64,000 bases of DNA from Methylococcales symbiont of Hymedesmia sp. n. MRB-2018 (GTDB lineage: Bacteria > Pseudomonadota > Gammaproteobacteria > Methylococcales > Methylomonadaceae), in contig QPIN01000062.1 of the NCBI GenBank assembly GCA_003666385.1, positions 62,001 through 126,000 of the forward strand. The letters run 5' to 3'. Each line of letters begins with the position of its first letter. Position 1 is the stretch's first letter. Below are positions 49,832 through 62,178 of the stretch, one piece after another. The notes under the pieces are model-generated. The model did not search any database. It had not been told where the DNA came from and saw only the letters and a list, made by a program, of their open reading frames with translations. The translations under genes and the position numbers were made by a program.

Positions 49832-50146
49832 TTATTGATTTTTTGCCTGTAGTTTTGCTGGATAGCCGATATTAGTAATTGTTTTTACGATTCTATCAGG
49901 ACTCGTTTTTGTCGGGTCGAAATTAATAGTTGCAGTTTTGGCATCATAATTAATAGTGACTTGCTGGAGACCATTTTTGACTTCAAGTGCCTTTTTAATA
50001 GTATATTTGCACACTGGGCAGGTCATATTTTGTATATCGAGTATGACAGTGGCATTTTTTAATGGTTTTTTAATAGCTGTTTCTGCCTGACCTATTGAGA
50101 TTGGACTCTGTGTAATTAATAGAAGAAAGATAAGTATATTTTTCAT
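49832..50146 (-). CDS. merP: MerP-like periplasmic mercury/heavy-metal binding protein
   Basis: 104 aa with signal peptide; HMA motif NMTCPVCKYTIKKAL. Confidence 0.88.
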   Translation of the reverse strand: MKNILIFLLLITQSPISIGQAETAIKKPLKNATVILDIQNMTCPVCKYTIKKALEVKNGLQQVTINYDAKTATINFDPTKTSPDRIVKTITNIGYPAKLQAKNQ

Positions 50147-50171
50147 AGTCGATTATATTATTTGTAAGTAA

Positions 50172-50537
50172 CTAAATAAAAAAGGATGCATATATAGGAA
50201 ATGTCAATAGCAGTAGAATCAATAGTGAAACTATCCAAAATAAGCTGCGTTGTCTATGTCGCATTGAAGTTGATACACAGGCTTGTTGCTTTTGACACGG
50301 GTTCTTTTTGAAATAAAGACGATGAAAGGCTAAAACCATAAAAAAGACGGTTAAGATGATAAAAAAAGGTCGCATAAAGGTCATGGAAGTCAATGTTGAC
50401 ATCCATGCTCCACTGATTCCCAGAGAGAGTAGTAATAAAGGACCAAGGCAACAAGCCGATGCGGCTATAGCAGAAAAGATAGCAAGTAAGACTGGCCAAA
50501 AAGAATGTCGGGTGAGAGTTTCTTGTTCTGATTTCAT
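50172..50537 (-). CDS. merT: MerT-like mercuric transport protein
   Basis: 121 aa; SAIAASACCLGPLLLLSLGISGAW, 3 TM. Confidence 0.88.
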   Translation of the reverse strand: MKSEQETLTRHSFWPVLLAIFSAIAASACCLGPLLLLSLGISGAWMSTLTSMTFMRPFFIILTVFFMVLAFHRLYFKKNPCQKQQACVSTSMRHRQRSLFWIVSLLILLLLTFPIYASFFI

Positions 50538-50570
50538 TACAACAGTTTGCTCAAAGATGGATTAAGCTTG

Positions 50571-50602
50571 ATTATCAACCCTGCTGTTAAGGTCAGGGTC
50601 AA
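50571..50602 (-). promoter_or_regulatory. MerR-type merT promoter/operator
   Basis: Minus strand ttgaccctgaccttaacagcagggttgataat: -35 ttgacc, dyad accctg-N10-cagggt in an elongated 19-20 bp spacer, -10 tgataat. Confidence 0.75.
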
Positions 50603-50639
50603 GTTGTAAAAGCTGTTTTTAAAGAATTTAACGGGTGGA

Positions 50640-51032
50640 CTATGTATTTTTGGACAATGCATCAAGAATGGCGCAGTGCTCTGAATATTTTGTCTGTTGG
50701 CAATGTGTAGTAAGTTGAGTCAAAAATTGACGAAGAACGATTAATTCATTAATTTTATCATCGATATTTTGACATTTTTGCTCTGCTATTTTTCTGATTT
50801 CATCACAATGCGTTGCATCAAGAGAGAGTAATTCAGCAATTTCTTTTAAAGTAAACCCCGCCTTTTGGGCGCGTTTAATAAACTGGATGGTAGTAATTGC
50901 CTCAGTAGAGTAGTGTCGAAACCCATGATTAGGCTTTTCAGGTTCTGCCAATAAACCAATGCGTTGATAATGGCGAACTGTTGCAATAGTTACTTCAGCT
51001 TGTTGGGCAAGTTTACCAATGGTCAGTTTCAT
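50640..51032 (-). CDS. merR: MerR-family transcriptional regulator (Hg-type)
   Basis: 130 aa; MKLTIGKLAQQAEVTIATVRHYQRIGLL; C-terminal cysteines HCDEI, HCQQTKYSEHC. Confidence 0.88.
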   Translation of the reverse strand: MKLTIGKLAQQAEVTIATVRHYQRIGLLAEPEKPNHGFRHYSTEAITTIQFIKRAQKAGFTLKEIAELLSLDATHCDEIRKIAEQKCQNIDDKINELIVLRQFLTQLTTHCQQTKYSEHCAILDALSKNT

Positions 51033-52155: not shown

Positions 52156-53064
52156 TCAAGCAAACAAACCTACAAAAGTAAAGCCAATGCCAATATAGAT
52201 AGCTGCTTCGATTGAACCAATCGCCACATTACACTGTTCACCCACTTCTTCTGCCACATTCACTTTAGGTAATAAAATATGCCTTAATACAATAGATAAT
52301 AAGGTTTGCGATATAAAAATTACAACGGCCATTAACACCCAGGCCAAAACTGAGAAAACTAATACGCCAGGATCATAGATAACAACACCAGAAGTCGCTG
52401 TTACTGCTAAAGCAAGACCTAAACGATAGCCTGAAAAACGCAGTGCCAAGGCAATATTTCCATCTTGAATTTCACCTTGTAATGTTTTTCCTATATCCTT
52501 ATGTCGCTGATTAAAAATAGCACTTCTATAAAGCGTGGCTAATAATAAAATAATTTGTGACAGTAAAAAAATAGCCACAACCACAGCCAGCCCCAAAAAA
52601 GTTGAACCATCCACCCAAGACATTGCCGCACGAATAATAATAGCCGTGGCAATTAAGTTAAAAGCATCCACCACACCCGCTGCAACATTACCCTTCATAA
52701 TTTCATCGTGGATGGATACTTGGCGTAAACCCACCTTATCAAAAATAATACGGGTTAAACTCATAAAAACCATGGCTGCTACGCCGTAACTGAGCATTAA
52801 GGTGATTTCTTCAATGTAAGTGGTTCCAGCATCGCCAGCCACCACGCCCATCATCAGCACAGCAACTGCCACAATAGCACCTGCTAAGGCTATGCCCGCA
52901 GCAAAGTTATCATGTTTTGCTAGCAACTCACTTAAAGAAATGCCGGCAATGCTTGAAGCCAGTATTCTTAATGCTGCCATAAAGCCCATAAGAATAACAA
53001 AGTCAATTGCATAATAGGTCAATGCTGCGTCACTTAGTATAATCTGTTGTGTTAAATTTTCCAT
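52156..53064 (-). CDS. DUF350 family membrane protein (YjfL-like, duplicated domain)
   Basis: 302 aa, about 8 TM, two DUF350-like halves. Confidence 0.75.
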   Translation of the reverse strand: MENLTQQIILSDAALTYYAIDFVILMGFMAALRILASSIAGISLSELLAKHDNFAAGIALAGAIVAVAVLMMGVVAGDAGTTYIEEITLMLSYGVAAMVFMSLTRIIFDKVGLRQVSIHDEIMKGNVAAGVVDAFNLIATAIIIRAAMSWVDGSTFLGLAVVVAIFLLSQIILLLATLYRSAIFNQRHKDIGKTLQGEIQDGNIALALRFSGYRLGLALAVTATSGVVIYDPGVLVFSVLAWVLMAVVIFISQTLLSIVLRHILLPKVNVAEEVGEQCNVAIGSIEAAIYIGIGFTFVGLFA

Positions 53065-53088: not shown

Positions 53089-54168
53089 TTATTTACCACC
53101 AAAACCACCAAAACTACGACTACGACTGCGCGAACTGCTACCAAAAAAGCTAGAACTGCGTTTAGATGCTGTATTACTGCTACTAGATGATCGTTTGCCG
53201 CCAAAAAAACTGGAACTACGTTTACTACTGGCTTTATCTGCATGTCGTCCACCACTGTTTTTATCTCTAGCATAATTTGACTGAGTTGATCTTTGTCGAT
53301 TATAACTGCTTACCCGTTGCCGCCCTTTAACCGAACCATATTGTTTTTTAGGTTTTGTGGCAGGCTTATAGCCATTATTCCGCATACTGGTATTGCGTTG
53401 CGAGGTATTCCTACGGTCATAACTACTACCATAAGAGCCTCTACCATAGTCATTATAATAAGAGTAATGTGGTCGCCTATTCCAGCGGTTATAGTAGATG
53501 GGGCTAGTATTATAATACCCTCCACCAAACATACTTCTAAAAAAAGCATACTGTCCATACCAATGCCAAAAGGATCGTCCTGAATTATCTTGCCGGTATT
53601 CACCATAACCAGGATTACCTACTAAATAGCTGCCTGGTGTAATCGCTTCACCTCGCACATTAGCTGCTTGACTATCTTTAGGAATACTAACCGTATCCAA
53701 CTGCCCGTCAGACAATTCAGCCATGGTATTGATTAAATCTATCAATGCATCATTAAAAACTATGGGATCAGCCCCTATATCAATTGACATAAGAGATTCG
53801 CTAGCTTGCTGGAATTGCTGTTTATTTTCACAGTTACGGTTAACTTTAGCTAATCGTCTTAGCAAACCCTGAAATAAAGCCCCTTTTTCTGTTGCATCCT
53901 TAGCCATTGCCTTTGCAATAGGTCTGAAATCAGGTTTTATCGCCGCTAATTTATTGGCATAAATCTCAACGATTTTGGCATTCGTTAACTCGCCAAAATA
54001 GAGTTTATCTTTTAGCGTATTTAAGTTTTTTTCAACCTGTAAATAGTTTTTCTGGACTTGTTCTGCATAGTCATTGCCACACGCACTTAATATGAGTAGC
54101 AAGAACACAACTGAGAAAGTACTCGTTTTTTCTTTATTAAAATAATGGCTAACCATAAAATAACTCAC
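53089..54168 (-). CDS. DUF1190-like lipoprotein with Ser/Arg/Phe/Gly repeat tail
   Basis: 359 aa; lipobox LLILSACGN; C-terminal SKRSSSFFGGKRSSSSSNTASKRSSSFFGSSSRSRSRSFGGFGGK; next to DUF350 gene. Confidence 0.6.
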   Translation of the reverse strand: MSYFMVSHYFNKEKTSTFSVVFLLLILSACGNDYAEQVQKNYLQVEKNLNTLKDKLYFGELTNAKIVEIYANKLAAIKPDFRPIAKAMAKDATEKGALFQGLLRRLAKVNRNCENKQQFQQASESLMSIDIGADPIVFNDALIDLINTMAELSDGQLDTVSIPKDSQAANVRGEAITPGSYLVGNPGYGEYRQDNSGRSFWHWYGQYAFFRSMFGGGYYNTSPIYYNRWNRRPHYSYYNDYGRGSYGSSYDRRNTSQRNTSMRNNGYKPATKPKKQYGSVKGRQRVSSYNRQRSTQSNYARDKNSGGRHADKASSKRSSSFFGGKRSSSSSNTASKRSSSFFGSSSRSRSRSFGGFGGK

Positions 54169-54186: not shown

Positions 54187-54233
54187 GTAACTACTCAGCG
54201 TACTCCGTAACTGCTTAGATTGCCCTTTATTTT
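54187..54233. repeat. Repeat family A half-copy abutting atpF stop
   Basis: gtaactactcagcgtactccgtaactgcttagattgccctttatttt then diverges at the atpF stop codon. Confidence 0.82.
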
Positions 54234-54741
54234 ATAAATTATTCTCTAAATCTTTCAATTGTTGTTTAATAATCCGTTTATGATCATCAGTGTCTAAGAC
54301 TTTATTTGTTACTTTTTCAACACCAACAATAACTAGCTGAGCATATTTTGCGCTCATTTCCTTTTTCATATCTTCTTGTTGCTGAGAAATAGTATATTGT
54401 GCTTGTTCAAGCATTAGCTCAATATCAGATTGTCCCTTTTGGTGTGCCTTGGCAATAATTTCATCCGCTGTATTTGACGCAGTATCTATTATTTTATTAG
54501 CTTCTTTGGAAGCCACTGAGAGTCTTTGTGTCACTTCATTTTCAATGGCAAGAAGACGCTGTTCAATTTTATCTTCGTTTTCAAGACTTTTTAGAACACC
54601 CTTCTTTCTTGCTTCTAAAACTTTAAATATCGGAGGATATAAAAATTTTCTTAGAACCAGAAAAAGAATTAAAAAATTCACAATTTGAGCAAGCAATAAA
54701 ATAGGTTGTACGCCAAAATCGCTGAACATTCTTTCTAACAT
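54232..54741 (-). CDS. atpF: F0F1 ATP synthase subunit b
   Basis: 169 aa; N-terminal TM LLLAQIVNFLILFLVLRKFLYPPI then long amphipathic helix. Confidence 0.88.
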   Translation of the reverse strand: MLERMFSDFGVQPILLLAQIVNFLILFLVLRKFLYPPIFKVLEARKKGVLKSLENEDKIEQRLLAIENEVTQRLSVASKEANKIIDTASNTADEIIAKAHQKGQSDIELMLEQAQYTISQQQEDMKKEMSAKYAQLVIVGVEKVTNKVLDTDDHKRIIKQQLKDLENNL

Positions 54742-54753
54742 TGAAAATTAGAA

Positions 54754-54957
54754 TCAGATGGTTAAAGCAATAATCAAGACATATATAGCAATGGCTTCAG
54801 CAAATGCCATAGCTAAAAGCATCACCGGGATTATTTTTTCCTGCACTTCGGGGTTACGTCCTATTGCTTCCATGGCTTTCATCCCAATCATTCCAATGGC
54901 TATAGCAGGACCAAAAACACCTGCCGCAATGGCAATTGCCGCTGATAAATTTCCCAT
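54754..54957 (-). CDS. atpE: F0F1 ATP synthase subunit c
   Basis: 67 aa; two TM, KAMEAIGRNPE loop, carboxylate Glu in AMAFAEAIAIYVLIIAL. Confidence 0.94.
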   Translation of the reverse strand: MGNLSAAIAIAAGVFGPAIAIGMIGMKAMEAIGRNPEVQEKIIPVMLLAMAFAEAIAIYVLIIALTI

Positions 54958-55036
54958 CTTTTCCTCCTTACTTTGTATCTAAAACGAGTGATTTTATTGT
55001 ATGAAAATAGCAAATACATTTGTACATTAACTAGCC

Positions 55037-55834
55037 TTAATCCTCTTCCTTTTTACTCAATATAACCATAAATACCAGTGTTAACATCATAAACACAGCT
55101 GATTGAATAAACGCCACCATCACTTCCAAAAAATAAAAGGGTAATGGAATAATAAAAGGGAAAAATGATTTAGCAGTTTTTAGTAAAATCTTCCCTGCCA
55201 TAATGTTCCCAAAAAGTCGAAAGGACAAGGAAATAATTTTAGTAAATTCAGCAACTAATTCTAACAAGCCGACAAACAATGAGATACCAAACATTTTAAA
55301 AGAAAACCATTTTTTCAAATAACCAACAATACCTAAGGAACGTATGGCAAAAAAGTGGGTAATGAAAACTGAAATTAAAGCTAGTGCCAATGTCACATTC
55401 AAGTCTGAATTGATTGATCTGAATAGAGGGATAAAAACCTGATCAGCTTCACCTTCTATCGCCTTATACAAACCGATAGATGCAAAACCAGGTAACAATG
55501 CGGATAAATTAGCCACTAAAATAAATAAGACAAAGGTCATCAACCATGGAAAATAAGAATAAACATTCTTAGCTGCCATTTTTTCAATCATGTTAAAAAT
55601 ATATTCAAAAAATATTTCAAACAACGCTTGGACTTTTCCAGGAACCATTGACATCTTATTTGAAACAAAAATAGCAATAATAGAAAGGTAAAAAGTAAAT
55701 AGTAATGCAGTGATAAGAGAATTGGTAACAGGGAAAAAACCCATTTGAAAAATCACCTCTGGCGCAGAAATGGAATACTCTGAAGGTAATGCTGCTATAT
55801 TAGAATTGCTTGTTTTAGGTTCTGTCATAAGCAT
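55037..55834 (-). CDS. atpB: F0F1 ATP synthase subunit a
   Basis: 265 aa; essential Arg in LSFRLFGNIMAG. Confidence 0.94.
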   Translation of the reverse strand: MLMTEPKTSNSNIAALPSEYSISAPEVIFQMGFFPVTNSLITALLFTFYLSIIAIFVSNKMSMVPGKVQALFEIFFEYIFNMIEKMAAKNVYSYFPWLMTFVLFILVANLSALLPGFASIGLYKAIEGEADQVFIPLFRSINSDLNVTLALALISVFITHFFAIRSLGIVGYLKKWFSFKMFGISLFVGLLELVAEFTKIISLSFRLFGNIMAGKILLKTAKSFFPFIIPLPFYFLEVMVAFIQSAVFMMLTLVFMVILSKKEED

Positions 55835-55844
55835 GGCTTTAACC

Positions 55845-57545
55845 CTATCCCAAATTCCATACTATACTTTTTGAGGTTTCAGGGTCGGACTCAACCGCAC
55901 CCTTCTCTAATTGAGAAATACAGTGTAAAAATTCATCAAACAAATGCTCTTCAGGGATTAAATTAGGAATAAAACTAATTCCACTAAGCATATCCTTTGG
56001 CTGATCCTGAATTCCCGTTATTAACACAGTAATTCCCCTTTTTTTCAAAGCTATCACGGCATCTTCAAGTGCGTAGATACCTGACTGGTCAATATAAGGT
56101 ACCAGTCCCATACGAATAATAACGACAGTCACTTCAGGTAAGGAGCTTAGTATTTCGTTGAATTTAGAGGCAAAACCAAAGAAAATAGGGCCGTCAAAAT
56201 GTTTAATATAAACTTGCTCCCTAATGTGTTCAGAAATATCAGTTTCATCGCTCCATATTTCTTCACGTGCAAAGTTATCAACTGAACCTGTTGAACTGTT
56301 TTTTTCAACAATATCGCTCATTTTTTTCATAAACAAAATTGAGGCAAGTACCATACCTACAGCTACCGCTTGCAATAAATCCACAAAAACGGTCATTGAC
56401 AAGACAATGAGCATAACGATTGAATCTGTTTTAGGTACATGAACAATATGTTTAATCCCTTTATAGTCAATAATACCAATACCTACAGTAATCAAAATAC
56501 CTGCTAATACGGGTAATGGAATTAATCTGGCATAAGCTCCAGCACCGAGTAAAACAATCAATAATGCCAAACCATGGATAACACCAGAAAGTCGAGTTTT
56601 TCCACCTGAATTAATATTTACAACCGTACGCATGGTTGCGCCTGCACCAGGTATACCACCGATTAATGCTGCGCCCATATTACCCAAGCCCTGACCAATT
56701 AATTCTTTATTACTGTTATGTTGGGTTTTAGTCATATTGTCGGCAACAATTGATGTTAATAAGGAGTCAATTGTGCCTAATGCTGCCAGTGTTAATGCAG
56801 GAATAATAAGTTGCATAGGATGACTAAAATCAACATTAATCAAAGAATCTATTTTTAATGCAGGAAAACCTTCAGGGATATCACCAATAATTTTAACATC
56901 AAGACCCATAATGGTAGAAATAATGGTCAGTCCAACTAATGCAATTAATGCACTGGGTATTAATCTGGTTAATCGAGGGGAAATATAGATAGTTGCAATG
57001 GTTGCTAATGCCAAACCCGCTGAAGCTATATTTATATCATTGATGATATTAGCTAATTCTGAGAAAATCTGGGTTATTTTTTTAGGTGATGTGTGACCTA
57101 GAAAAGGGAATATCTGCAACATAATGATGATAACGCCAATACCGCTCATAAATCCCGAAACCACTGGATATGGCATATAGCGAATATATTGTCCTATTTT
57201 AAATACGCCTAGTAAAATCTGAAATATACCTGATAGCAGAAAGATACACATAATAGTACCTAATGTTGATTCAATACTACCACCATTTGTTTCTATTGCA
57301 CTCGTAATCACGACAGCAGAAACTACCGTCATAGGACCTGTTGGCCCACTGATTTGTGTAGGGGTACCTCCAAACCAAGCGGCAATCATGCCAATGGCAA
57401 TAGCACCATAAAGACCGGCAATAGCGCCCATTCCTGATTGCAAACCAAAAGCTAAAGCTAAAGGCAAAGCGACAACAGCGGCAGTTAAGCCACCAAAAAA
57501 ATCACCCCTTAAATGCGAGCTATCTATAATTTTTTTATTACTCAT
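55845..57545 (-). CDS. SulP family inorganic anion transporter with C-terminal STAS domain
   Basis: 566 aa; GGLTAAVVALPLALAFGLQSGMG, QISGPTGPMTVV; STAS VPYIDQSGIYALEDAVIALKKRGI. Confidence 0.93.
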   Translation of the reverse strand: MSNKKIIDSSHLRGDFFGGLTAAVVALPLALAFGLQSGMGAIAGLYGAIAIGMIAAWFGGTPTQISGPTGPMTVVSAVVITSAIETNGGSIESTLGTIMCIFLLSGIFQILLGVFKIGQYIRYMPYPVVSGFMSGIGVIIIMLQIFPFLGHTSPKKITQIFSELANIINDINIASAGLALATIATIYISPRLTRLIPSALIALVGLTIISTIMGLDVKIIGDIPEGFPALKIDSLINVDFSHPMQLIIPALTLAALGTIDSLLTSIVADNMTKTQHNSNKELIGQGLGNMGAALIGGIPGAGATMRTVVNINSGGKTRLSGVIHGLALLIVLLGAGAYARLIPLPVLAGILITVGIGIIDYKGIKHIVHVPKTDSIVMLIVLSMTVFVDLLQAVAVGMVLASILFMKKMSDIVEKNSSTGSVDNFAREEIWSDETDISEHIREQVYIKHFDGPIFFGFASKFNEILSSLPEVTVVIIRMGLVPYIDQSGIYALEDAVIALKKRGITVLITGIQDQPKDMLSGISFIPNLIPEEHLFDEFLHCISQLEKGAVESDPETSKSIVWNLG

Positions 57546-58354
57546 ATTCTCACTAACACTTCACCACGACCCAACTCAGACATATCACCTGCATATTTCT
57601 GAACTCTGTTAAACGCCTCAGCTTCACTAGCAAATTTAGAATTTAATTGTCTGAAAGATGCAAATAATAGGGGTAAAAATGCCAAGGTATGTGAACCACA
57701 GTCATTAAAAGTTGCTGTTAATTGTGGTTGATTCCAAAGTAACAGTGTTCCTCTGCGCATGGCATAGCCTAAATAACGGCCTGTTTGCCCCATAACAGCA
57801 ATCGTCCCAGCGACCATTCTGGAGCCGCAATAATCACCCGCATTACCTTCAATCAATAAAGTACCTCTACGCATATGATCACCTGCGCGCTGCCCAACAT
57901 TGCCTTTGACTAATACGGTACCCCCCTTCATGCCTTGTTTATTACCTGGTAAAGCTGAGGCCAGAAAATCCCCACTGTCTCCTGTTATTTCAAGATATCC
58001 ATCTTTCATTTCGCAAGCTGCATATAATCCTGCATTGCCTTTGACTTTAATCGTTCCAGATTTCATTTCCTGTGCTAAATAAGCACCCACATCACCATTA
58101 ACAGTAATAGTCCCACCATCTAATTCTTTTCCAATAAAATCCAGCTTGAAAAAACTGCCTTGAATGACTAGGTTTTTAGTGTCAGAACCTTTGATAGCAA
58201 ATAGACTATCAACACGAATCTTTCTTTTACCATTTTGTAATTCAATAGCGGCAATATCAGTAACGCTCATGCCTTCCAATTTATTACACACTAGGGGTGA
58301 CATATCAACCCGCTGGTCAAGTCGAGTCTTCATAGTTAGCGTTAATGCACTCAT
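57542..58354 (-). CDS. fhcC: Formyltransferase/hydrolase complex subunit C (FmdC-like)
   Basis: 270 aa; repeated GxxxG beta-helix motifs (GTIKVKGNAGLYAACEMKDGYLEITGDSGDFL); in fhcBADC order. Confidence 0.93.
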   Translation of the reverse strand: MSALTLTMKTRLDQRVDMSPLVCNKLEGMSVTDIAAIELQNGKRKIRVDSLFAIKGSDTKNLVIQGSFFKLDFIGKELDGGTITVNGDVGAYLAQEMKSGTIKVKGNAGLYAACEMKDGYLEITGDSGDFLASALPGNKQGMKGGTVLVKGNVGQRAGDHMRRGTLLIEGNAGDYCGSRMVAGTIAVMGQTGRYLGYAMRRGTLLLWNQPQLTATFNDCGSHTLAFLPLLFASFRQLNSKFASEAEAFNRVQKYAGDMSELGRGEVLVRI

Positions 58355-59247
58355 GCCATAATCTCCTGCAAGTGAAAGTGGAATGGACCTAATTTACCGC
58401 CATAGTTCCCTGCGCTAATTCTTTGGATCCCCTCTTCTGCACCCAGATCACACACCGCTTGAATACCGACTCTCATTGCTATATCAATATCTTCTTTAGT
58501 TAAACCATCAATGACTATTTCCATGACTGATTCACATTCTGGCGGTAATTCTGTTTTGCTCATACCTTTTAAAGTGGGGCAAAAAGCATCATTACTGGAA
58601 GCGCCTAAAGCGGGGTATTTTGAACCGACTTTAGAACCTGAGCGTACCACGCCACCTGGGAATGGCATAATCACATTAGCTAACTTGCGCATTTCTTCAA
58701 TCGCTGCTTCACAAGCAGCTAACGCTTTCGGCTGTGATTTGGCGAGTACTAAAAAGTTACCTCCACCAACGGCTTCAACACGTCCTGTGGTTGCTTCAGT
58801 TAAAAACTCACCGTCCATTACCGGTATGCGCCAATAACGCTTGCCAGCGATTTTTTTAGACACTTGAAAACCATCACCAAAATAACGCAGATTTTTGCCC
58901 AAAGGAATTTGCACCCCTTCATCAATACCTGCAAATAATGCAGAAGTAGGTGAAGTTAATACGCACTGCCCTGCTCTTGTTTCCAGTTGTTCCGCTAAAC
59001 CTTTTCCACCCATGGCAAAAATCAAAATAGATACCCCAGGGCGACCATCTGGCGTTTCTGATGGTAATAAAGTACGTTCTATACCTGCTTCACAACCACA
59101 GGCGATCACCGATGTAGCAAAACCCGTCATGGCTTGTGCTGAAATCATCGCCCATTTTTCATTTTGGGCAGTGATAATCGCTCGTGTTGCTTTCATTGCA
59201 AAAGCTTCGGCAAAAGTCGCATCAATTGTTACCCCATTGATAATCAT
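58351..59247 (-). CDS. fhcD: Formylmethanofuran--tetrahydromethanopterin formyltransferase
   Basis: 298 aa; MIINGVTIDATFAEAFAMKATRAIITA, Ftr family. Confidence 0.96.
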   Translation of the reverse strand: MIINGVTIDATFAEAFAMKATRAIITAQNEKWAMISAQAMTGFATSVIACGCEAGIERTLLPSETPDGRPGVSILIFAMGGKGLAEQLETRAGQCVLTSPTSALFAGIDEGVQIPLGKNLRYFGDGFQVSKKIAGKRYWRIPVMDGEFLTEATTGRVEAVGGGNFLVLAKSQPKALAACEAAIEEMRKLANVIMPFPGGVVRSGSKVGSKYPALGASSNDAFCPTLKGMSKTELPPECESVMEIVIDGLTKEDIDIAMRVGIQAVCDLGAEEGIQRISAGNYGGKLGPFHFHLQEIMA

Positions 59248-60908
59248 ACTTTTTCTCCCACGGTTGGATGCACCGTCAAACTACCCCGTCCATCTTCGGT
59301 TATTTCATCATCGCTAATGGTAAAGTTTCCTACTTTCATAGTCATAAAGCGGTCAAAGTATTTCTTCAAATCTTTTTCTATAGATTTATCATAATCAGGC
59401 CTGACTATATGGGTGGTTCCCCAGACGACTTTAACCACCTCACCCTCTTTAACCACTAATTCTCCATCTTTAAAAACGTAATCCGGTTTTTCAAACATTT
59501 TTTCACGGTTATCATTTTCAGTGTAAACGGCAATGTCTGCAAAATCACCTTTGCCTAATGCACCTCGATTTTCTAGGCCAATAATTTTAGCTGCACCGGC
59601 ACGCGTAAGAATAGCGATTTCCTGCATAGAATATTCACGGTCAATCGCACCCAATGTGGTCATTTTTTGTGCTTCAGGATGGATGGTTGCCAACATATCA
59701 TTGCGGAAACTTTTATCCATTAACAGTCGAATCAAATGCGGATATGAGGTAAAAGGAGCACCATTAGGATGATCTGTAGTCAAGAAAATACGCCACGGGT
59801 CTTTAACTAACAAAAATATTTCCAGTCCAATCGCCCACTGCAATGCATTAACAAAATTCTGATCTTTATATTTAAAAGGTACAAGACCACAACCCGCATC
59901 ACATTCAATATCCATACAGACCCATTTATTAGGCGATGAAATCCCGTGATTGGCATACTGACGCTGATTATCACCCGATGCAGTAATGGTTTGACCAAAC
60001 ATGATCTGACCGACATCGACCGATACGTTGTTATTTTTATTGATGGCTTCTGCAAGCTCTGCACCGCCTGAAGAAAATTTAAAGTCCCCTTCTGTGCCAT
60101 AGCTATGGAACTGAACATGGGTTAAATGCATAGGCAAGCCTTCAACACCTACAATAGAATCCAGTGTAGTTTGAATATTACCTGGCACACCTAAATTACT
60201 ACCATGAACATGCAAGGGATGTGATATGCCTAATTCCTTAATGGCTGTAGCCAGGGATTTTAGAATTTGCCGAGGGGTAACATTATAATGGGTATTATTT
60301 TCATCTAGGTCGAGCTGTCGCTGATTAAATTTAAAAGCACTGATTCCTCCAGGATTAACCACTTTAATCCCCACACATTGAGTAGCACGGAGTGTCCAAG
60401 CCACGTAATCATTAATCGCTTGTTGATCCTTATTAGCGGTCATCATCCGTAAAAAGAAATCATCACTGCCCAGCATTACATAGCCGCCTTTATCCAACAT
60501 CGGCGTATCACCCATTTCCATATGTGCTTGTCTGGCATTAATCGGTAATACAGCAGGTTCAAAGGCTGCGGTATAGCCCATTTCCGCATAACGATAGCCC
60601 GTAGTAAAAGTACTGGGCATGGCATGTCCTGTACCTGCACGTTTAATATCCGTATGTGCTACGGGATCAATACGGTGATTCTCTGGCATCAGCATTCTGG
60701 CAATATTGCCCTTACCACCGCCAATATGCGTGTGTAAATCAATGGCTCCTGCCATCACTATTTTTCCACCAATATTATATTCTTGATCAGGCTCAACATT
60801 TCTTGGCTTAGACACAATCCGTCCATCTTCAATGTAAATGTCTTTTTTCTTGCCATTGACTTTATTTGCAGGGTCATAAACGATACCGCCCGTTAGTTTT
60901 GTCAACAT
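59244..60908 (-). CDS. fhcA: Formyltransferase/hydrolase complex subunit A (amidohydrolase, FmdA/FwdA-like)
   Basis: 554 aa; AGAIDLHTHIGGGKGNIARMLMPE. Confidence 0.96.
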   Translation of the reverse strand: MLTKLTGGIVYDPANKVNGKKKDIYIEDGRIVSKPRNVEPDQEYNIGGKIVMAGAIDLHTHIGGGKGNIARMLMPENHRIDPVAHTDIKRAGTGHAMPSTFTTGYRYAEMGYTAAFEPAVLPINARQAHMEMGDTPMLDKGGYVMLGSDDFFLRMMTANKDQQAINDYVAWTLRATQCVGIKVVNPGGISAFKFNQRQLDLDENNTHYNVTPRQILKSLATAIKELGISHPLHVHGSNLGVPGNIQTTLDSIVGVEGLPMHLTHVQFHSYGTEGDFKFSSGGAELAEAINKNNNVSVDVGQIMFGQTITASGDNQRQYANHGISSPNKWVCMDIECDAGCGLVPFKYKDQNFVNALQWAIGLEIFLLVKDPWRIFLTTDHPNGAPFTSYPHLIRLLMDKSFRNDMLATIHPEAQKMTTLGAIDREYSMQEIAILTRAGAAKIIGLENRGALGKGDFADIAVYTENDNREKMFEKPDYVFKDGELVVKEGEVVKVVWGTTHIVRPDYDKSIEKDLKKYFDRFMTMKVGNFTISDDEITEDGRGSLTVHPTVGEKV

Positions 60909-60909
60909 A

Positions 60910-62178
60910 TTAGCTCACCAATCCTTGTTCAATCGCGGTTAATACTTCTGCCGTACTCGGCAAACCCGAGTCTCTGAGTTTTTTTAAACGGATAGCCACA
61001 ACATTATCCAAACGATAAGCATGTCCTGCATGATCAATCCCCGGAGTGCCTACTGGTATAAAAACCTCAGGTTCTTCTTTAAAGCGCATACCAGAACGGG
61101 CAACGACAATCGTAGGTATCTTACCCCCTGTTGGAGGTATAGCACTGGAATTAAAGGCTTGCACCCAGACAAGGGCATCCACTTCGCCGTTATCAAACAT
61201 TTGATTAATATCATAAAGAAAAGGATCATATTCGGGAATATCACTGGAAAAACGCATTCTAGCGGGATAGCCGGTTTGCCAACCACAAACTTGATTTGCT
61301 GTTTGATCACCTTCTTTACCGCCTAAAGGGAAACCTGAGCATCTAACTCCCGATGCATTAACTTCTTTAACCAATTCACAAATTGTCTGAACAGTGAGTT
61401 CTGCCTGGGAAAAATCAAGGGTAGAAGCCGACCATGTCACCACACCATAAGTTGCAGCTTTTAATTTATCGGCAATCACTTGTAGATCAGCGACTGTAAT
61501 ACCACCGACTTGTTCAGCAACAACAAGATTTTCTTTAATTAATGCTCTTAACACGGCAAGCACTTCTGGTAAATCCGCATCAGCACATTCTAAAACTTGT
61601 GCTTTGGTTTTTTTAGGGGATGTCGAGGCTTTACCCGAAGGTGCTTTACCTATATATATAACCTCTCGTGCGCTGGTATCATCCAGAAACATAGATTCTT
61701 TATTCCACAGATAACGCTGATAAAAACGAGGAGCAAAAACTTCAAGATCACAAGCAATAACCACAAATAAATCACATCTATTTTTTATCTCAGCCAAGGT
61801 GGTATTCATCCAGCCTGAATCTTGCAGAGCAAGAAAGTTACCCCGTGCTTTAGTAAAATTCATATTATCAACCACAGCACCATTGCCATCAGCTAAAGCC
61901 ATTAAAGCCCGCATACCATTAACATCTGTAGCACAACCGCCAATGACAGGTTGATTCGCATTTCTTAAAATCTCAGAAGCTCTAGTAACCGCCTGTTTAA
62001 GACTTACTTCCTTGCCATCAACTCTAGGACTGGTATCTGTAATAGCTTGCTCAAATGCAGCTGTATTTACTTCACAGCCATTTTTAGATACCTTTATTGA
62101 AACACCATTAACTTTAATAGTTAAATCGTCCGTACCCATACCACAAAAAGGACTGGGGACTTCAGTAATTTCTGTCAT
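60910..62178 (-). CDS. fhcB: Formyltransferase/hydrolase complex subunit B (FmdB/FwdB-like)
   Basis: 422 aa; molybdopterin oxidoreductase-like fold, FCGMGTDDLTIKVNG, first gene of fhcBADC. Confidence 0.93.
   Translation of the reverse strand: MTEITEVPSPFCGMGTDDLTIKVNGVSIKVSKNGCEVNTAAFEQAITDTSPRVDGKEVSLKQAVTRASEILRNANQPVIGGCATDVNGMRALMALADGNGAVVDNMNFTKARGNFLALQDSGWMNTTLAEIKNRCDLFVVIACDLEVFAPRFYQRYLWNKESMFLDDTSAREVIYIGKAPSGKASTSPKKTKAQVLECADADLPEVLAVLRALIKENLVVAEQVGGITVADLQVIADKLKAATYGVVTWSASTLDFSQAELTVQTICELVKEVNASGVRCSGFPLGGKEGDQTANQVCGWQTGYPARMRFSSDIPEYDPFLYDINQMFDNGEVDALVWVQAFNSSAIPPTGGKIPTIVVARSGMRFKEEPEVFIPVGTPGIDHAGHAYRLDNVVAIRLKKLRDSGLPSTAEVLTAIEQGLVS

Follow-up and report, generated by a model that had tools for sequence, protein, structure and literature searches.

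An F0-only ATP synthase cassette adjoining a family-conserved fhcBADC-sulP locus in a Methylococcales genome

Why would the membrane part of an ATP synthase, without its catalytic head, be encoded directly behind genes for formate production and anion transport? The question is raised by eight minus-strand genes in a 64,000-nucleotide stretch of Methylococcales DNA (the window) that lies on contig C22 of a 99% complete genome of 2.2 Mb in 63 contigs; the bacterium is a methanotroph and probably lives in a sponge. The genes specify the formyltransferase/hydrolase complex (fhcBADC), a SulP-type anion transporter (sulP) and the F0 subunits a, c and b (atpB, atpE and atpF). A first-pass annotation had read them as one translationally coupled, operon-like run serving anion (formate or bicarbonate) and proton flux at the formate branch point. 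Family models assign all eight open reading frames (ORFs) to the families it named. We find that atpBEF is an F0-only cassette separate from the fhcBADC-sulP layer, and that this layer is itself a conserved locus of the family.

The two layers have different distributions. We used a family sample of 237 genomes from 29 genera, a class sample of 369 genomes and a phylum sample of 399 genomes; claims on whole genomes rest on family searches, and the names Rho, polA, recC/recB, beta-carbonic-anhydrase-like ORF and formaldehyde-activating-enzyme-like gene were given by eye. A profile of the accessory a-subunit matches five of the 237 family genomes (the window genome, G160, G198, G952 and G992) and, at the thresholds used, none of the class or phylum genomes. 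A contig scan with two strict peptide patterns, from which an undercount is expected, adds one metagenome-assembled genome (MAG) labelled Lysobacterales (L041). The cassette lies behind fhcBADC-sulP in the window genome and in G160 (contig QPIL01000123.1), a sister of the same genus and apparently the methanotrophic symbiont of the deep-sea sponge Iophon, a symbiosis described in PMC6474228. In G198 and the Lysobacterales MAG it stands between a two-component system and PsiE with a lipoprotein-type alpha-carbonic anhydrase, in G952 behind polA, and in G992 before recC/recB, where the end of the contig truncates atpB. Nowhere do the readable flanks of the cassette contain an F1 gene.

These unlike contexts raise the question of how the cassette travelled. 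The tree of accessory a-subunits departs from the genus labels (G952 and G198, both of genus g17, are not sisters), which suggests transfer. Matches to plasmids stay below 60% identity, the best at about 31%, and no viral contig matched the cassette; spread by plasmids or viruses was rejected on these grounds. Separately, the L041 contig (MAG titled Lysobacterales) and contig L042 (MAG titled Methylomonas) have the same gene order and are about 80% identical in DNA along roughly 7 kb, which suggests that one bin is mislabelled or that a transfer has occurred.

The fhcBADC-sulP layer is more widespread. All four Fhc subunits are encoded, in the order B-A-D-C, and score above the cut-offs of four TIGR equivalog models; in the Fhc family, FhcABCD converts formyl-tetrahydromethanopterin to formate. 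SulP orthologs (E<=1e-180) occur in 27 of the 237 family genomes and six of the 29 genera. Of 26 loci inspected, 10 have sulP behind fhcBADC in the same orientation, one of them with a small gene in between; this amounts to linkage in 10 genomes of four genera. In G198, the first fhcBADC-sulP locus has another fhcC/fhcD pair beside it (contig C25, L081 8855-9999), which is divergent (31% and 58% identity) and places two Fhc sets next to each other.

The ATGA overlaps of 4 bp at fhcA/fhcD (59244-59247), fhcD/fhcC (58351-58354) and fhcC/sulP (57542-57545), and the 10-bp gap between sulP and atpB, are as the first-pass annotation gave them, and fhcB-fhcA and atpE-atpF are separated by 1 and 12 bp. 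The run is nearly gapless at most junctions but slightly less tight than first described, because atpB and atpE are 79 bp apart; this spacer, which holds a strong AAGGAGG ribosome-binding site, is mostly retained in G160. A promoter and terminator between fhcC and sulP had been named as the sign of separate transcripts; within the run, neither promoter-like nor terminator-like matches exceed the expectation from shuffled sequence. The same gene order in the independent MAG G160 rules out an assembly artefact and extends the arrangement beyond one assembly. However, the fhcC/sulP overlap is seen in the window genome only. The junction in G160 is a 277-bp gap with what looks like the remnant of a Uma2-type gene, and because gaps up to this length or an intervening gene are found elsewhere, translational coupling does not stand as evidence of linked function. 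The proposed fhcC-sulP-atpB synteny likewise holds for fhc-sulP, whereas sulP-atpB adjacency is confined to the two sister species.

The cargo of the transporter can be judged from its relatives. The window SulP has both the membrane domain and the STAS domain, and aligns with BicA (PDB 6ki1) across the whole membrane domain (E=4.7e-102). The ligands of bicarbonate and Na+ in BicA are T69, D258, T262, G300, A301 and T302 (PMC13249358), and all six are identical in the window protein. Its score of 476 bits against the NF050096 BicA model is below the equivalog cut-off of 880, and we therefore call it BicA-like rather than BicA; it is probably a Na+-coupled bicarbonate importer. In Methylococcus capsulatus, a SulP encoded in a beta-CA3-SulP operon has been proposed as a bicarbonate importer in a methanotroph (PMC11423575), and distant SulP homologs in G055 and G007 adjoin a beta-carbonic-anhydrase-like ORF. 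Given this precedent and the retained BicA ligands, bicarbonate is the likelier cargo, and of the two anions first proposed for the formate branch point, formate is the one for which we found no evidence.

Other genes recur around sulP. Several unlinked sulP loci have a formaldehyde-activating-enzyme-like gene nearby; it forms a divergent pair with a radical-SAM-like gene at L083 5730-7219, and similarly at L079, L080, L084, L117 and L121, in several Methylomonadaceae. Where sulP is not followed by an F0 cassette, a protein of about 595 residues, possibly a GspE-type ATPase, follows it at several loci (L079 5068-6846, L085 9609-11399, L088 10000-11784 and L117 953-2734).

If the cassette brings no F1 of its own, is a second head encoded elsewhere? 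The first-pass annotation described an F0-only module, and this holds genome-wide: contig C9 of the window genome carries one full housekeeping operon, atpIBEFHAGDC, including the second atpB of the genome. ATPase domains of the alpha/beta type were found in that operon and in one protein on contig C4, which reads as Rho. (Repeats on the same contig C4, at L109 9361-10600, read as HCRTGSLE/LSCLCGSE in ORFs and resemble a type I-F CRISPR array.) The window genome, G160, G198, G992 and the L041 MAG each encode a single F1 gamma, and the window genome thus combines one F1 with two sets of F0 genes. G952 has three gamma genes and is therefore not a one-F1 case. By the gamma count, a hidden second F1 was rejected for four of the five family carriers. 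The passages found in the sponge-symbiont paper list atpABCDEFGH and fhcABCD and do not mention a second F0 (PMC6474228).

The kind of F0 is defined by its residues and its phylogeny. The accessory a, c and b subunits are recognised above cut-off by PF00119, PF00137 and PF00430, respectively. In subunit a, Arg206, Lys215 and Glu237 correspond to R210, E219 and H245 of Escherichia coli, and the equivalents of R210, E196, N214 and Q252 are kept. Arg206 is invariant in six of six accessory a-subunits, and so is Lys at E. coli position 219, where the housekeeping a-subunits examined carry Glu or Gly; Glu stands at 245. The carboxylate of subunit c lies in AFAEAIAIY and is invariant in the five aligned c-subunits. 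The c-subunit sequences GPAIAIG and EAIAIY are without the Gln and Ser/Thr ligands of the Na+-binding signature, so that protons are the likely ion, and a Na+-coupled F0 was rejected on this motif. In known enzymes the c loop and the C-terminus of b make the contact to F1, the C-terminal segment of b binding delta. Both regions are conserved here: the loop reads EAIGRNPEA, with EAIGRNP invariant and the last A replaced by V in the window, and the C-terminus of accessory b aligns with that of housekeeping b.

The accessory a-subunits form one clade (support 100/99) outside the housekeeping and all other sampled a-subunits. This clade joins the a-subunit of PDB 9itj (94/89), a grouping, unlike the accessory clade itself, that may be affected by small errors in the tree rows of 9itj and 22vl, which came from local alignments. 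Among solved structures, 9itj, which we take to be the ATP synthase of Chloroflexus aurantiacus, is likewise the nearest for a (4.8e-47; 164 bits against 74 for the next) and the second for c and b. Its chains number two for a, four for b and ten for c, and its residue at E. coli position 219 is Glu. Neither a complete N-ATPase operon nor a copy of the housekeeping genes accounts for the cassette: F1, AtpQ and AtpR are absent from the flanks, TIGR03306 scores 74 bits against a cut-off of 302, and both candidates were discarded on scores and tree. The accessory a-subunits are about 57-70% identical to each other and all still open. Comparison of nonsynonymous and synonymous divergence indicates purifying selection between L041 and L042 (atpB dN 0.067, dS 0.96; atpE dN 0.013); between the window and G160, atpB gives dN 0.016 and dS 0.126, with too few changes in atpE and atpF to judge. 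At the level of sequence, these data establish the cassette as an F0 lineage of its own, maintained by selection, whose carriers mostly encode only one F1.

Is there nonetheless a link between cassette and carbon genes? Adjacency, limited to the two sister species, is weak evidence when taken alone. All five family carriers have a SulP ortholog, against the background of 27 in 237 (hypergeometric 1.4e-5), and so do three of three carrier genera, against six in 29 (0.0055). In all five, sulP is joined to fhcBADC: five of the 10 linked loci belong to carriers and none of the 16 unlinked ones (0.004; 0.007 when three truncated loci are left out). These statistics treat genomes as independent, and the three genera of the carriers may share ancestry or exchange genes. 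The association is thus suggestive, and the functional link first proposed between fhc-sulP and F0 is partly supported, because every family genome with the cassette carries fhcBADC-sulP, with shared ancestry as a confounder; on the other side, three of the five (G198, G952 and G992) keep cassette and fhc-sulP on different contigs.

We favour, tentatively, the following explanation. The fhcBADC-sulP genes are a family-conserved C1/bicarbonate locus, behind which a mobile atpB-atpE-atpF cassette was presumably inserted in the common ancestor of the two sister species, of which at least one is apparently a sponge symbiont. FhcABCD yields formate, and the BicA-like SulP most likely brings in bicarbonate with Na+. 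The cassette itself may specify an accessory, proton-conducting F0 that binds the housekeeping F1 and gives it a second gearing. The accessory a subunit, c-ring and b2 stalk would engage the head through the conserved c loop and the full-length b stalk, and we favour docking because these two parts are retained. The outcome would be a second, hybrid ATP synthase with a different ion-to-ATP gearing or pH range, in which Lys at E. coli position 219 may alter the proton half-channel. Functional F1/F0 hybrids between species are established, as for E. coli F1 on Propionigenium F0. Several points weigh against this explanation. Identity between accessory and housekeeping b is about 25%, and accessory b varies somewhat more than the housekeeping b proteins sampled, so that docking to the same delta/alpha is not assured; conservation of loop and stalk could be an inherited constraint for F0 assembly; a change of gearing alone leaves the link to the bicarbonate genes unexplained; and the comparison covers six sequences only, several from fragmented MAGs.

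That link is better accommodated if the three accessory subunits make up a free-running F0, admitting protons without ATP synthesis and balancing charge and pH for inorganic carbon handling by SulP and carbonic anhydrase in C1 metabolism. We consider this unlikely. The cassette adjoins sulP in two species and alpha-carbonic anhydrase with PsiE in two others, all five family carriers have sulP joined to fhcBADC, and the invariant Lys at 219 could act as a gate. Yet an open F0 leak would be costly to the cell, c and b keep the parts that face F1, the neighbours seen in G952 (polA) and G992 (recC/recB) include no carbon gene, and the co-occurrence is confounded by the relatedness of the genera. 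It is quite unlikely that methanotrophs use such a stand-alone F0 as a dedicated rotor or conduit, driven by protons, to energise or balance the transport of inorganic carbon (SulP, carbonic anhydrase) with no ATP synthesis.

The cassette might also be what remains of a partial ATP synthase operon that was acquired horizontally and lost its F1, its F0 now redundant or interchangeable with housekeeping subunits and its place behind fhc-sulP a positional accident. The patchy distribution, the unlike contexts and a position behind fhc-sulP common to two species only are in agreement with this idea, as are an a-subunit clade that joins 9itj rather than gammaproteobacterial F0 and the scars of insertion or deletion (the Uma2-like remnant) at the fhcC-sulP junction of G160. 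We still hold it to be unlikely: F1 is absent in every carrier with readable flanks, and a-subunits that have diverged to the extent given above while staying open under purifying selection should by now have shown decay. Least supported, and improbable, is a single co-regulated operon of eight genes whose products work together in anion and proton flux as one module of the formate branch point, as the shared strand, the tiny gaps, the absence of a terminator above chance and the same order in the Iophon symbiont are set against an fhcC/sulP overlap in one genome, sulP/atpB adjacency in two, separate contigs in three other carriers and formate transport without evidence.

The features of the run are listed in Table 1.

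Table 1. Genes and spacer of the fhcBADC-sulP-atpBEF run and the gene that follows it, in window coordinates.
Feature	Position	Strand	Support
fhcB, formyltransferase/hydrolase complex subunit B	60910..62178	-	TIGR03129 329 bits
fhcA	59244..60908	-	TIGR03121 762 bits
fhcD, 4-bp overlaps with fhcA and fhcC	58351..59247	-	TIGR03119 451 bits
fhcC, 4-bp ATGA overlap with sulP	57542..58354	-	TIGR03122 273 bits
sulP, BicA-like SulP/SLC26 anion transporter with STAS domain	55845..57545	-	NF050096 BicA 476 bits, PF00916, PF01740
atpB-alt, accessory F0 subunit a	55037..55834	-	PF00119 132 bits; alignments; best PDB match 9itj
Spacer atpB-atpE, 79 bp, AAGGAGG ribosome-binding site before atpE	54958..55036	-	sequence
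atpE-alt, F0 subunit c, 67 residues	54754..54957	-	PF00137 54 bits
atpF-alt, full-length F0 subunit b including C-terminal segment	54232..54741	-	PF00430 73 bits; alignments
Downstream lipoprotein-like gene, Ser/Arg-rich tail	53089..54168	-	no Pfam or NCBIfam match

The gene after atpF, first described as an unrelated lipoprotein, is lipoprotein-like and not an ATP synthase part; it lies on the same strand and in the same place in G160. Downstream of it follows a DUF350 membrane protein (52156-53064, minus strand), an order also kept in G160. A mercury resistance cluster is close by (49832-51032, minus strand), with MerR and MerT recognised by Pfam and then a MerP-like small protein. At the end of contig C22 (L108 41-2959) a very large protein is encoded in part; it is probably a surface protein rich in repeats.

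A literature search for an fhc-SulP link or for F0-only cassettes returned nothing relevant, subscription papers being mostly outside its reach. We regard the finding as of moderate-to-good interest because the state of one F1 with two F0 sets is unusual and testable. Genomes that combine a single F1 with two unlike F0 sets allow a direct test of whether F0 modules can be exchanged like gear boxes on one catalytic head, or whether F0 can work without any head; a stand-alone F0, if true, would be an ATP-synthase motor reused without ATP synthesis. The adjoining conserved bicarbonate transporter ties in with the formate step of methane oxidation, and bears on how methanotrophs retain their own CO2.

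How does the locus compare with known systems? With F-type F0 the accessory set shares the a-c-b order, the Pfam families, the essential Arg, the c carboxylate and a b-type stalk; it differs in the absence of F1 genes alongside, Lys in place of a-Glu219 in all six members, a 67-residue c and a clade apart from the host's own F0. The closest solved a subunit, in 9itj, was deposited as part of an ATP synthase and not of an F0-only module, and has Glu where accessory a has Lys. N-ATPases (TIGR03306/03321/03322) are likewise a laterally spread second ATP synthase, but the accessory F0 scores far below their cut-offs, belongs to another clade than the short a-subunits taken for N-ATPase and has no Na+ motif. 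Split F0 and F1 operons are familiar from the Rhodospirillum rubrum type. Photobacterium profundum SS9 has two sets of ATPase in one genome (PMC10054830). Shared with these cases are an F0 encoded apart from F1 and more than one gene set; here, in contrast, the second F0 coexists with a complete housekeeping operon, and four of the five family carriers lack a second F1. The window SulP matches BicA in its membrane domain, STAS domain and six ligands, and differs in its sub-threshold score and its fhc linkage. SulP is also the element shared with the beta-CA3-SulP operon of M. capsulatus, whereas its partner in this branch of the family is fhcBADC and not carbonic anhydrase.

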